Below are positions 30,161 through 47,055 of a stretch of 64,000 nt of DNA, one piece after another. Position 1 is the first letter of the stretch, and the number at the start of each line of letters is the position of its first letter. The stretch spans positions 1 through 64,000 of the forward strand of contig CALVJY010000009.1 of assembly GCA_944332455.1 (NCBI GenBank), given 5' to 3'. The translations under genes and the position numbers were made by a program. The notes beneath the pieces were generated by a model, which saw nothing but the letters and a program-made list of their open reading frames with translations, was not told the DNA's origin and made no database searches. Source of the DNA: an uncultured Clostridia bacterium. Lineage in GTDB: Bacteria > Bacillota > Clostridia > Christensenellales > HGM11417.

Positions 30161-30211
30161 GCGAACGCACCGGAAAGACCCGTCTCTCCCGCCGAGAAAC
30201 AAAGAGAAAAT

Positions 30212-30375
30212 CGTCTGCCGGCAGGTCTCCTGGCTTTCACGGCCGTGTTCCCCGCAGCCTTCCCGGTTTTCCCAGTGGCATGTTGCGGCGGCCGTTTGAC
30301 AGTAGCGGGGGCTGCGAGGCTTGAACCTTCTTCCCTCCGGCGCAAAACGCCGGCCTTTCGGCTCCGTCAGACGTC
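30212..30375 (-). promoter_or_regulatory. Cobalamin (B12) riboswitch
   Basis: Minus-strand aptamer with canonical blocks in order: GAGGGAAGAAGGTTCAAGCC, GCAGCCCCCGCTACTGTCA, GCCACTGGGAAAACCGGGAAG and the B12 box AAGCCAGGAGACCTGCCGGC. The ends CGTCTG and CAGACG pair as the closing P1 stem. A terminator hairpin follows about 50 bases downstream. Confidence 0.95.
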
Positions 30376-30418
30376 TGTAAAGAGCGGCGGGACAACCCTT
30401 CTCGCTCGTTGTGCTCCT

Positions 30419-40225: not shown

Positions 40226-40942
40226 TCAGAACAGGATCTCGCCCTTGGCCACCGTCCTGCCCTCCTTTTGCAGGGCAAACAGGTCGCCGCCCGCAGTCCC
40301 GCCCCTGCGGACGGAGAGCAGGTCTCCCTCGAAGGACTGGCTGACGTAGACGATCTCCATCTCCCGGACGGGGCGATCCTGAAGCTCGGCGACCGAATAG
40401 GTGTCCAGCATGAAGCGGATATACTCGATGTTGTTGGTGTGCCGGGTAAAGTCGATGTTGGTGTACTTCACCTGCACCTGCGCGACCTCGGGCAGATCCT
40501 CGCAGTCCAGGCGGGTAAAGGGCAAATCGACCTCCCCCTGCTCGGCTGCGGCGGCGCCGTCAAAGCCGAAGGAGGAAAACCGCCGGATCCTGCCGGTCTG
40601 AAGATCCAGGGCGCAGAGTTCCACCCGGGAACAGGCGCATAATTCCCCCTTTTCGTCCCGGATCTCCACGTCCGCGTTGGCCGTGATCGGCGTGGCCGAA
40701 GACAGAAAGCACACGGTGGAAAACTCCTGTCCCCAGCCAAGGTCCTTAAACCGCCGGATCCGGTTTTTGACAAAGACCCAGGCCGCGTTGTGCCGGTTCC
40801 GCATGGTGATGTTGTCTGCATTCAGCTCCCCCAGCATGGCGGTAACGGCGTCCTCCACCACCTGGAAGACGCCGATGACCGACAGATTGGCCTGGGGATC
40901 GGTCAGACTTGCGGTGACCGTCCGCTTGCGAACGCTCTTCAT
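40226..40942 (-). CDS. Acyl-ACP thioesterase
   Basis: A 238-residue member of the acyl-ACP thioesterase (FatA-like) family, a double hotdog fold that releases fatty acids from acyl carrier protein. The second hotdog contains the catalytic segment NIDFTRHTNNIEYIRFMLDTY (Asn-His dyad region), preceded by VQVKYT. The first hotdog has HNAAWVFVKNRIRRF. The start at 40942 follows AGGAAGTC. It has its own promoter and is a single-gene unit. Chain length preference is unknown. Confidence 0.88.
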   Translation of the reverse strand: MKSVRKRTVTASLTDPQANLSVIGVFQVVEDAVTAMLGELNADNITMRNRHNAAWVFVKNRIRRFKDLGWGQEFSTVCFLSSATPITANADVEIRDEKGELCACSRVELCALDLQTGRIRRFSSFGFDGAAAAEQGEVDLPFTRLDCEDLPEVAQVQVKYTNIDFTRHTNNIEYIRFMLDTYSVAELQDRPVREMEIVYVSQSFEGDLLSVRRGGTAGGDLFALQKEGRTVAKGEILF

Positions 40943-41040
40943 GACTTCCTTTGTCCCTCGCACCGGGCCGGACCTCGGGCGCTGCCGGATCCGCCCTCTT
41001 TTTTCTCCCTCTCCGAGAGGGGCCGAAAAAGGCTCATTTC

Positions 41041-41120: not shown

Positions 41121-41337
41121 ATTTGCCTAGCGGCGGTTTTATTTGCCTTCGGCAAGTTATATTTGCCTGACGGCAAGTTTTATTTTGCTGTCGCAAAGTG
41201 TTATTTCTCCCTTCGGGAGAAGTTGTGGACTTATCCGCAACTTTGGCCAGGGGCCAAAATATCACGCAGGCCTGCATATCACTTTCAGCCGTAAGGCTGA
41301 AAATATAACTTTGACGGTAAGTCAAAATATAACCACG
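41121..41337. repeat. Hairpin array 1
   Basis: A run of short perfect hairpins joined by ATATCAC/ATATAAC-type linkers. Order on the plus strand: TTGCC-TTCG-GGCAA type, TTGCC-TGAC-GGCAA, TTTGC-TGTC-GCAAA, TTCTCCC-TTC-GGGAGAA, GTTGTGGACTTATCCGCAAC, TTGGCC-AGG-GGCCAA, GCAGGCCTGC, TTTCAGCC-GTAA-GGCTGAAA, TTTGAC-GGTAA-GTCAAA. It is in the 3' region of the lipoprotein gene at 41621 and before the thioesterase promoter. No protein is encoded. Confidence 0.9.
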
Positions 41338-41392
41338 TTTGAGGCGCTCCTTGAACGCCCGAAACCTGTGACCGCGGATCAAAATATAACCG

Positions 41393-41610
41393 AGTTTTAT
41401 TTGCCTTCGGCAAGTGATATGCCTTCGGCGTGTTATTTTGCTTCGCAAAGTTTTATTTCTCCCTGTGGGAGAAGTTGTGGTTTTATCCACAACTTTGGCC
41501 AAAGGCCAAAATATCACTTTCAGCCGCAAGGCTGAAAATATCACTTTGACGATAAGTCAAAATATCACTTTGGCCAAGGGCCAAAATATAACTTTGACCT
41601 TTGGTCAAAA
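41393..41610. repeat. Hairpin array 2
   Basis: Same stem order as array 1 with different loops: TTGCC-TTC-GGCAA, TGCC-TTC-GGCG, TTTGC-TTC-GCAAA, TTCTCCC-TGT-GGGAGAA, GTTGTGG-TTTT-ATCCACAAC, TTTGGCC-AAA-GGCCAAA, TTTCAGCC-GCAA-GGCTGAAA, TTTGAC-GATAA-GTCAAA, then an extra TTTGGCC pair and a TTTGACC pair. The central hairpin contains a perfect TTATCCACA (41483-41491). It begins about ten bases past the stop codon of the lipoprotein gene at 41621. Confidence 0.9.
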
Positions 41611-41620
41611 TTCCCCCCTT

Positions 41621-42316
41621 TCAGCTCTGGCTCTGGATCTCCGTTCCCCCCTCCCGGACGTCGTAGAGCACGGCGAACATGCCGCCCTGGCGGTCGCAGA
41701 TCAGCACGTGCCAGAACAGTTTCCCATCCGGGCGCTCGGCCAGCCGGACCTGGATCTCGCAGGCATACTCCCCGTTCTGCAGGGTGCCGGCCAAAGGCTC
41801 GGCCAGATCGGCCAGGCCCTTGCGGAAGGCCTCCTCCATGGTCATGTCCCCCTCCTGCCGCAGGGTGCGGACGGTCACGTCCTCGTCATAGTGCTGCCCG
41901 GTGACGTTGATCTGGGCGGCCCCGGACGACAGGTCGGCCTCGGGAATGTCGGCGGCGTACTGCCCGTTGTAGGGGTGGCGGGCCAGCACGGCGGTAAAGG
42001 TCTGCCCCCCGGCCGCCAGTCGGGCGGTCAGTTGGTCGGCCTCCTCGGTGTCGAACTTGGGGGTGACGATGACCAGACAGTAGGCCGTCAGCGGATTGGC
42101 GGTCCCGTCCAGCGCATAGGGGTCCTCCCGCTGGCCCAGATAGACGGTGATCGAAAAGTGCTCGCTCTCCCCGACCAGAACGTCTTCCCGGGTCTCGGAG
42201 AGCACTTTGCGGGGCTGCGCGTACTCGTCTCCGCAGGCCTGCAGAAGGCCCAGCGAGACCAGCGAGAGCAGCGCGACCCACAGAATGACAGAGAGGCGGC
42301 GGATGTGTTTCAGCAT
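41621..42316 (-). CDS. Uncharacterised lipoprotein
   Basis: A 231-residue lipoprotein of unknown function. The signal peptide (MLKHIRRLSVILWVALLSLV-like) ends in lipobox LQAC. The mature part is a single mixed alpha/beta region without a family I recognise; it starts with a short charged stretch (DEYAQPRKVL). The ATG at 42316 follows AAGGGGAAG. The gene is monocistronic in appearance: hairpin arrays begin right after its stop codon. Confidence 0.8.
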   Translation of the reverse strand: MLKHIRRLSVILWVALLSLVSLGLLQACGDEYAQPRKVLSETREDVLVGESEHFSITVYLGQREDPYALDGTANPLTAYCLVIVTPKFDTEEADQLTARLAAGGQTFTAVLARHPYNGQYAADIPEADLSSGAAQINVTGQHYDEDVTVRTLRQEGDMTMEEAFRKGLADLAEPLAGTLQNGEYACEIQVRLAERPDGKLFWHVLICDRQGGMFAVLYDVREGGTEIQSQS

Positions 42317-42408
42317 AAAAAAACTTCCCCTTGGCAGATTTACTACCAATCTATGAGGAAGTCTTTTTCTTTATGCCTGTTTCGCGGCGGAGCGGCGGAC
42401 CCGGTTTT

Positions 42409-43002: not shown

Positions 43003-43461
43003 TCAAATTACTGTGAGAAACAAACGGACCCTTCTGTAGTGCCACAGAGTAGAAGAACTGTCCGCTGAACAACGAATCATATAGGTTCCTCGGTCTAGGA
43101 TACTTTCTACCTTATGTTGCTTTCCGTTCAAATCCGTATATAAATATGACTCAATTTCAAATACATTGGGGCCGGAATGATCCGGAGAGACCCACGTAAG
43201 CTTCCCTTGCAAACAATAAGCGTCCACAATGATTCTGAATGCCTTGCCGGTGTATTCGATCTCATCGTGGATCTCATCCGTACCGACCGGGAAAACCCAC
43301 GTCCGAGAGGTAGACTCAGTATAAGGCGGTATTGTCCGAGTGGTGCTTTTCAGCCGAATGCTGACATCTCTTTTCCCGTCACACCCGGCAAGCGGCAGAC
43401 AGACCGCCGACAGCAGCAGCGCCACCGCCAGCAGGCTGACCGCCCGTTTCAATGCTTTCAT
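43003..43461 (-). CDS. Uncharacterised lipoprotein, copy 2
   Basis: A 152-residue lipoprotein (lipobox PLAGC, Cys27) of unknown function. It is a tandem paralogue of the next gene upstream (43487-43921). Signal peptides are nearly identical (MKALKRAVSLLAVALLLSA), while the mature parts match only in pattern: RLK/RLG...W-FPVGTdEIHdEIeYTGk, a Tyr-rich middle and ...STLWHxRxxRLxxTV at the end. The mature part is AT-richer than the signal peptide coding region. The C-terminal strand-rich domain is not recognised. Confidence 0.75.
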   Translation of the reverse strand: MKALKRAVSLLAVALLLSAVCLPLAGCDGKRDVSIRLKSTTRTIPPYTESTSRTWVFPVGTDEIHDEIEYTGKAFRIIVDAYCLQGKLTWVSPDHSGPNVFEIESYLYTDLNGKQHKVESILDRGTYMIRCSADSSSTLWHYRRVRLFLTVI

Positions 43462-43486
43462 GTTTCCCTCCTCCTCTTTTGATGTT

Positions 43487-43921
43487 TTAAACTACTGTGA
43501 TGTACAGGCGAATTGTTCTCGCATGCCATAAAGTACTCTCTGAAGCTGCTCTGCAATAAAATATATAACTCCCTTTGCCTGGAATGACGCGTGGCTCACT
43601 TTGCTGTCCGCTTTCATCCGTAAAGAGGGACGAAGTATAAAAGACATTTTTCCCCTGTGGAGCAAACCATTGGGCTTCTCCATGGAAGCGATAGCCCTCC
43701 ACAAAAATCCGGATCTCTTCACCGGTGTAAGTGATTTCCGTGTGAATCTCTTCAGTCCCGACCGGAAAATCCCAGTGTCGGAATACCCAACCGCTTTCGG
43801 TTTCAGCGCCCAACCGGATGACGATATCTTTTTTCCCATCGCACCCGGCAAGCGGCAGACAGGCCGCCGACAGCAGCAGCGCCACCGCCAGCAGACTGAC
43901 CGCCCGTTTCAATGCCTTCAT
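43487..43921 (-). CDS. Uncharacterised lipoprotein, copy 1
   Basis: A 144-residue lipoprotein with lipobox PLAGC (Cys27). It shares with its downstream neighbour the signal peptide almost base for base, and weakly the mature domain (DFPVGTEEIHTEITYTGEEIRIFVEGY; ESTLWHARTIRLYITVV). A strong promoter lies 65 bases upstream, and the downstream copy starts 25 bases after its stop, so the pair is one transcript. Function is unknown. Confidence 0.75.
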   Translation of the reverse strand: MKALKRAVSLLAVALLLSAACLPLAGCDGKKDIVIRLGAETESGWVFRHWDFPVGTEEIHTEITYTGEEIRIFVEGYRFHGEAQWFAPQGKNVFYTSSLFTDESGQQSEPRVIPGKGSYIFYCRAASESTLWHARTIRLYITVV

Positions 43922-43983
43922 GTTTCCCTCCGCCTTTGAAGTCAGCACACGGGCGGCCGTTCCGGTCTCCCCTTGCTGCTCTT

Positions 43984-46812: not shown

Positions 46813-47033
46813 AAGCACACGACTTCGCAAGTAAGGTTCGTGTGCTCTTTAACCTTCGGTCAAATTGATATTTTCAGCCTTGCGGCTGAAAGGTTAAATT
46901 TTGGCCTTCGGCCAAAGTTGTGGATAAATCCACAAACTTCTCCCGCAGGGAGAAATAACACTTTGCGACAGCAAAATATCACTTGCCGTCAGGCAAATAT
47001 AACTTGCCGTCAGGCAAATATAACTTGCCATAG
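46813..47033. repeat. Hairpin array 3
   Basis: On the minus strand it shows the same stem order as arrays 1 and 2: three TTGCC hairpins, TTTGC-TGTC-GCAAA, TTCTCCC-TGC-GGGAGAA, GTTTGTGGATTTATCCACAAC, TTTGGCC-GAA-GGCCAAA, TTTCAGCC-GCAA-GGCTGAAA, TTTGACC-GAA-GGTTAAA. A terminator-like GCACACGA/TCGTGTGC stem closes it at 46815-46845. The central hairpin contains TTATCCACA (complement of 46919-46927). It starts about 20 bases past the phosphohexomutase stop codon, in the gap 46604-47055, which has no gene. Confidence 0.9.
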
Positions 47034-47055
47034 GCAAATAAAACTCGTTTATTGC

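Follow-up and report, generated by a model that had tools for sequence, protein, structure and literature searches.

Hairpin arrays in a Clostridia genome as probable arms of a mobile element of the 23S rRNA intervening-sequence kind

Introduction

The window analyzed here, a 64,000-nt stretch of contig CALVJY010000009.1 from an uncultured Clostridia bacterium (order Christensenellales), contains at 41121-41610 a run of short hairpins between a lipoprotein-like open reading frame (ORF) and a thioesterase-like gene. What are these hairpins, and what keeps them in order? An initial annotation, made from the sequence alone, had described two consecutive arrays with one stem order and offered a non-coding RNA, an mRNA 3′ stabilizer, a protein-binding site or a mobile repeat as explanations. 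Our analysis indicates that the arrays are probably non-coding arms that belong to a mobile element of the kind known from 23S rRNA intervening sequences (IVSs), which encode the intervening-sequence protein (IVP, or S23p). We observed an architecture inverted about a centre, insertion into terminator loops in related genomes, horizontal spread, and an association with IVP genes. The copies in the window's own genome look, from their sequence, like IVP-less, degenerate members of this IVS-like family that stand beside stop codons.

Results

Layout and linker grammar of the arrays

The two consecutive arrays are indeed present, and a third lies further along the window:

41121..41333, + strand: array 1, with a left arm of hairpins and GTTTTAT, GTTATAT and GTGTTAT linkers, a centre, and a right arm with ATATCAC and ATATAAC linkers
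41222..41241, + strand: centre of array 1, a near-perfect GTTGTGGACTTATCCGCAAC hairpin at which the linker direction flips
about 41334..41393, no strand assigned: inter-array stretch of ~60 nt, GAGGCGCTCCTTGAACGCC, weakly structured, with similar segments in other copies of the window's genome
41394..41609, + strand: array 2, in the order of array 1, followed by an extra GGCC hairpin and an extra GACC hairpin
41472..41495, + strand: centre of array 2, the perfect hairpin AAGTTGTGG-TTTTAT-CCACAACTT
46848..47045, - strand: array 3, in opposite orientation; a stop codon lies ~10 nt before its start, and a hairpin resembling an intrinsic terminator comes after it
41621..42349, - strand: upstream lipoprotein-like ORF without a Pfam match, its stop codon ~10 nt from array 2
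40226..40963, - strand: downstream acyl-(acyl carrier protein) thioesterase-like gene (PF20791)

Positions 41121-41610 hold 14 perfect hairpins, whose stems are 5-9 bp long, and the 490-nt stretch folds far more strongly than its dinucleotide shuffles on either strand (z = -10.4 on +, -11.7 on -). The linkers between the hairpins are GTTTTAT, GTTATAT, GTGTTAT and GTGATAT on the left and ATATCAC and ATATAAC on the right. Reverse-complementing the left linkers gives the right ones, and so each array is inverted about its centre. At the gathering score, no Rfam family matched the window arrays; the sole match in the window was a cobalamin riboswitch elsewhere (78.7 bits, 30203-30383, - strand).

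The constant part of the arrays proved to be these exact 7-nt linkers (GTKATAT-type on the left, ATATMAC on the right), with hairpins of varying sequence between them. We scanned genomes with a pattern made of linkers only, blind to the stems, using the reversed pattern as a control. The pattern was found in 37 of 396 genomes of the order and 23 of 142 genera, against 2 control matches. Its distribution was patchy, reaching a maximum of 63 matches in a 1.3-Mb genome (G012), and named species among the matches listed were mostly gut or rumen Clostridia. A perfect stem of at least 4 bp was present in 274 of 415 inter-linker inserts, compared with 8 after shuffling, and left-type linkers preceded right-type linkers with a single flip in 145 clusters, with three exceptions. 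Linkers of the two halves matched better within an element (54%) than between elements (41.5%; 0/500), whereas nested pairing rank by rank was weak, with 34 of 500 permutations equally good.

Arrays occur at no fewer than nine places (at least 9) in the window's 2.35-Mb genome, with identity of up to 94% over 207 nt, and two other families have genomes that keep the hairpin order TTTGC, CCC, GTTGTGG, GACC, GCAGG/GCAAG, CAGCC/TAGCC. The shared stem order is thus real and wider than had been claimed. The accompanying description of conserved stems with changing loops holds only for near-identical local copies; across copies, it is the linkers and their polarity that are invariant, and the stems vary with compensation.

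Viral contigs, in which most matches to the pattern are chance, had a perfect stem of at least 4 bp in 6 of 271 inter-linker inserts. Real hairpin inserts were present in just one (L196) of the 69 viral stretches that matched, and a phage origin was rejected. An IVP-bearing record of a faecal 'phage' (L335) has a window-type array and may be host DNA.

Insertion into terminators and spread between families

Many copies outside the window's genome are flanked by the two halves of an intrinsic terminator, with the element in its loop. The split stems include AGAAGGTCGC|GCGACCTTCTTTTT, CCCGTTGCCC|GGGCAACGGG, GGACACC|GGTGTCC and AAAAAAGTCCGG|CCGGACTTTTTT, among others. We scored such splits blindly, as a stem followed by a T-run, and compared them with 200 re-paired flanks. 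A score of at least 18 was reached by 7 of 50 arrays and by 0 of 200 re-paired flanks; at a threshold of 14 or above, the counts were 16/50 and 8/200. At one locus, occupied in G149, two sister species carry an uninterrupted terminator between the same flanking genes, and the locus is 306-321 nt shorter in them.

Locus L268 (1239-2559, genome G329) contains a 1321-bp element consisting of an array, an IVP gene and a gene for an S-adenosylmethionine (SAM)-dependent methyltransferase, all inside a split terminator. In G258, which belongs to another family, 1225 nt of this element recur with 99.3% identity (L267, from 1239) beside an unrelated left flank. The methyltransferase in these two genomes is cargo of the IVP element. 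At L280, a further ORF directly follows the IVP gene. Several array loci and IVP loci were observed directly 3′ of tRNA genes.

Association with the IVP gene

In complete copies, the right side of the array is followed, after a promoter-like stretch, by a PF05635/TIGR02436 gene encoding the 23S rRNA intervening-sequence protein, a four-helix bundle with a solved relative (2RLD); IVP-less copies are common. PF05635 occurs in 22 of 26 array-positive genomes of the order and 7 of 26 array-negative ones (p = 6e-5). At least five window-type linkers were found within ~500 nt at 8 of 28 IVP loci of the order, against a background of 0.16 per 900 nt.

Other IVP loci follow the same array design with other linkers (ATGAAGC/GCTTCAT, GTGATGC/GCATCAC, GAAATCC/GGATTTC and more), and some have plain inverted tandem heptamers. 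Exact inverted repeated 7-mers accompany 35 of 65 IVP genes, whereas shuffles show them in 4 of 260 cases and other flanks from the same loci in 0 of 56. As this statistic misses divergent heptamers (for example at L306 and L312), 35/65 is a lower bound. IVP genes follow this inverted-heptamer rule in Bacillota, Bernardetia (Bacteroidota), Treponema (Spirochaetota) and several Cyanobacteria.

Among the surveyed IVP genes, four are located within 23S rRNA and a fifth within RNase P RNA. In the latter (L312, G443:C1), the IVP match at 1501-1818 falls within a bacterial class A RNase P RNA at 1229-2003, so that a 367-nt model spans 775 nt; the flanks are, by eye, inverted heptamers. We found no report of an IVP element interrupting RNase P RNA in the open-access literature.

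Three low-scoring PF05635 members (L322, L323 and L324) stand beside repeats resembling the variable and template repeats of diversity-generating retroelements (DGRs) and, judged by eye, are probably Avd genes; they do not follow the inverted-heptamer rule. Plasmid IVP genes at L330, L331, L332 and L334 lie between defence genes (type I restriction, helicase/methyltransferase, DISARM/BREX-like and CRISPR), a neighbourhood that may reflect insertion preference or passive spread.

Long-range helix and stem covariation

In most copies, the centre includes a stretch of 10 nt or more that is reverse-complementary to the outermost arm of one side. This helix, P1, was found in 64 of 82 arrays and 7 of 410 shuffles, and is made by 26 different sequences, including GGCGAATATAA, GGCGAATAGAA, GGCGAATAAAA and GGATTTATTTA. 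P1 thereby defines a canonical orientation of the element, in which it joins the centre to the outermost left linker and hairpin arm. The plan of the element is a terminal hairpin, a left arm with 7-nt linkers, the centre, and a right arm with reverse-complement linkers. In several copies, judged by eye, the loop of the terminal hairpin (AGGGATT) is complementary to the right end (AATCCCT) and may pair with it. Four loci of the window's genome (L009, L011, L013 and L016) have a similar hairpin, GGGGCAGCGAT..ATCGCTGCCCC, just left of their arrays, perhaps the terminal hairpin of this lineage.

To test order and covariation, we aligned homologous segments directly, taking them from the window's genome and from two other families. 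In this alignment, 98.9% of stem cells were paired and 27 were double-changed, a result equalled by 0 of 500 shuffles, and structures slid along the same alignment were 22-48% paired. The relatives thus keep the same order with compensatory changes, rather than the unordered, uncompensated hairpins that would mark a recent local copy.

Watson-Crick pairs numbered 1042, against 5 G-U and 6 A-C, with no strand bias. A test for the RNA strand, which compared single G-U with single A-C mismatches, was uninformative (5 to 5). Such a near-absence of G-U pairs is unusual for a selected RNA fold and is compatible with palindrome-correcting mutation or with selection at the DNA level. Of the earlier proposal that pairing is under selection, the kept pairing stands; because G-U pairs are almost absent, selection is indistinguishable from palindrome-correcting mutation, and covariation by itself is no proof of an RNA function.

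Discussion

A mobile element of the IVS kind

The elements with window-type linkers are found next to RNAs that form hairpins or inside their loops, namely at terminators and on the 3′ side of tRNA genes, and IVP elements with other linkers occupy 23S rRNA and RNase P RNA. It is likely that the arrays belong among IVS-like elements as a family. A mechanism can be proposed from their design. The arms, as inverted copies of self-closing hairpins, would fold the insert into a branched side structure, and the interrupted host hairpin could then close beneath it, so that the insertion would be tolerated. We give this fold-away tolerance an even chance; if true, it would account for tolerance of the insert in all three settings, terminators, rRNA and RNase P RNA. 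IVP, the sole common protein, probably binds the nucleic acid of the arms, and it may also act in mobility, a role about which we are more tentative. In the window's genome, the IVP gene and P1 would have been lost, leaving degenerate, non-autonomous copies that persist beside stop codons.

Several observations weigh against this explanation. Terminator insertion is demonstrable for only about a third of the arrays, and the empty-site terminators of the sister species differ in sequence from the occupied one, which is expected between species and makes the comparison no strict proof. Four array-positive genomes lack IVP, and the other 20 of the 28 IVP loci in the order have linkers that are not of the window type. 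No mobility enzyme was identified for the element, and we know of no catalytic activity of IVP. The window's genome (assembly 94% complete) has no match to the PF05635 profile, split terminators were looked for around its arrays and none was found, and P1 is absent from their centres. Membership of the window copies in the family therefore rests on homology with other genomes. Here the link is G012, which shares the hairpin order of the window arrays and in which IVP-bearing and IVP-less copies coexist (L290 and others); this homology marks the window copies as probable degenerate, non-autonomous members of the same family.

Alternative explanations

The arrays could be host-retained structures at mRNA 3′ ends, serving as stabilizers or ribonuclease substrates, with mobility incidental or past. 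Every window-genome copy examined has a stop codon next to it, in most cases 5-44 nt away, and some are followed by an intact terminator; order and pairing are also kept with compensatory changes, as such a function would have it. A patchy distribution, very variable copy number, movement between families, scarce G-U pairs and arrays in both orientations relative to genes speak against it, and we consider a functional 3′ untranslated region (UTR) RNA unlikely. Mutation offers a somewhat better account, though still one less likely than not: template switching during replication would correct imperfect palindromes, in line with the few G-U and A-C pairs among so many Watson-Crick pairs, the missing strand bias and the even split of single mismatches. 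Alone, it leaves the constant linkers, the single flip, the long-range P1 and the IVP link unexplained, but it could act within a mobile IVS-like element.

The remaining candidates were rejected. Repetitive extragenic palindromic (REP) sequences and bacterial interspersed mosaic elements (BIMEs), moved by a REP-associated tyrosine transposase (RAYT, a Y1 transposase) or an IS200/IS605 relative, share with the arrays palindromes with a short asymmetric tag, inverted pairs and extragenic sites (PMC3733652 for REPs), and the window's genome (G000) has two Y1 transposases. Here, however, the stems vary in a fixed order and the linkers are constant, and 20 of 26 array-positive genomes lack a Y1 transposase, including G012 with the most copies; the earlier distinction from REP/BIME is borne out, and such an origin is very improbable. 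Equally remote is a chromosomal protein-binding site, such as one titrating DnaA. The centre at 41472-41495, with TTGTGG..TTATCCACAA, resembles the DnaA-box consensus, but it is not kept: relatives have GTTGTGGTAAATATAATATAAC or GGCGAATATAATATCAC, and some copies in the window's genome are without it. Among the options first offered, the mobile repeat is the one retained, and nothing favours a non-coding RNA, an mRNA stabilizer or a protein-binding site over a selfish element.

Relation to known systems

A published account of the 23S rRNA IVS of Coxiella burnetii presents it as a selfish element that encodes S23p and has heptamer repeats upstream of the ORF (PMC4990558). IVSs resemble the elements found here in being selfish inserts, a few hundred nt long, within an RNA hairpin, with complementary ends and an S23p ORF, and the IVP elements that we found in 23S rRNA carry inverted heptamers. 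Insertion into the hairpin of a structured RNA was seen in relatives and other IVP elements, not in the window copies; complementary inverted ends are present, as inverted 7-nt linkers, both in the window and around IVP genes; and a PF05635 ORF lies within many related copies, not in the window's genome. In contrast to IVSs, window-type elements occupy terminators and 3′ UTRs, have hairpins between the heptamers, are present in many copies and sometimes carry cargo, and the window copies lack the gene.

TAACTGA heptamer repeats of Beggiatoaceae and cyanobacteria, likewise tandem 7-nt units in intergenic regions with a patchy distribution across phyla, have been described as direct repeats with no link to IVP (PMC4679880). 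The DGR accessory protein Avd is homologous to PF05635 (PMC10053308). Unlike DGRs, 19 of 26 array carriers have no reverse transcriptase gene; with PF00078 in only 7 of 26, an obligatory reverse-transcriptase or DGR mechanism is unlikely. Most carriers differ in the same way from group IIC introns, and no Rfam intron matched at the window arrays. Group IIC introns also favour transcription terminators.

Within the open-access literature searched, no paper connected IVP with inverted heptamers, with hairpin arrays or with terminator insertion. The results link three puzzles that are unconnected in that literature: the mobility of 23S rRNA IVSs, the function of the common 'four helix bundle protein' (TIGR02436), and intergenic heptamer and hairpin repeats. 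They allow a broader proposal, whose parts taken jointly we hold to be evenly balanced between right and wrong. IVP could mark, as its signature protein, a class of mobile elements found across bacteria. These elements would be built of inverted tandem heptamers with or without hairpins between them, would enter the loops of RNAs that form hairpins (terminators, rRNA, RNase P RNA), could carry cargo, and would move without an encoded recombinase or reverse transcriptase. Such a class would be where rRNA IVSs, the window arrays and some of the unexplained intergenic heptamer repeats all come from. As a caution for work on Clostridia, hairpin arrays that are ordered and covary are likely to represent selfish DNA and not a regulatory RNA. 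Terminator loops whose sites are empty in sister species offer a concrete setting for the study of IVS-like movement, with IVP as the protein to test.

Apart from the arrays, two neighbouring small lipoprotein-like ORFs at 43003-43948 (- strand) of the window have near-identical N-terminal regions, apparently from a tandem duplication.
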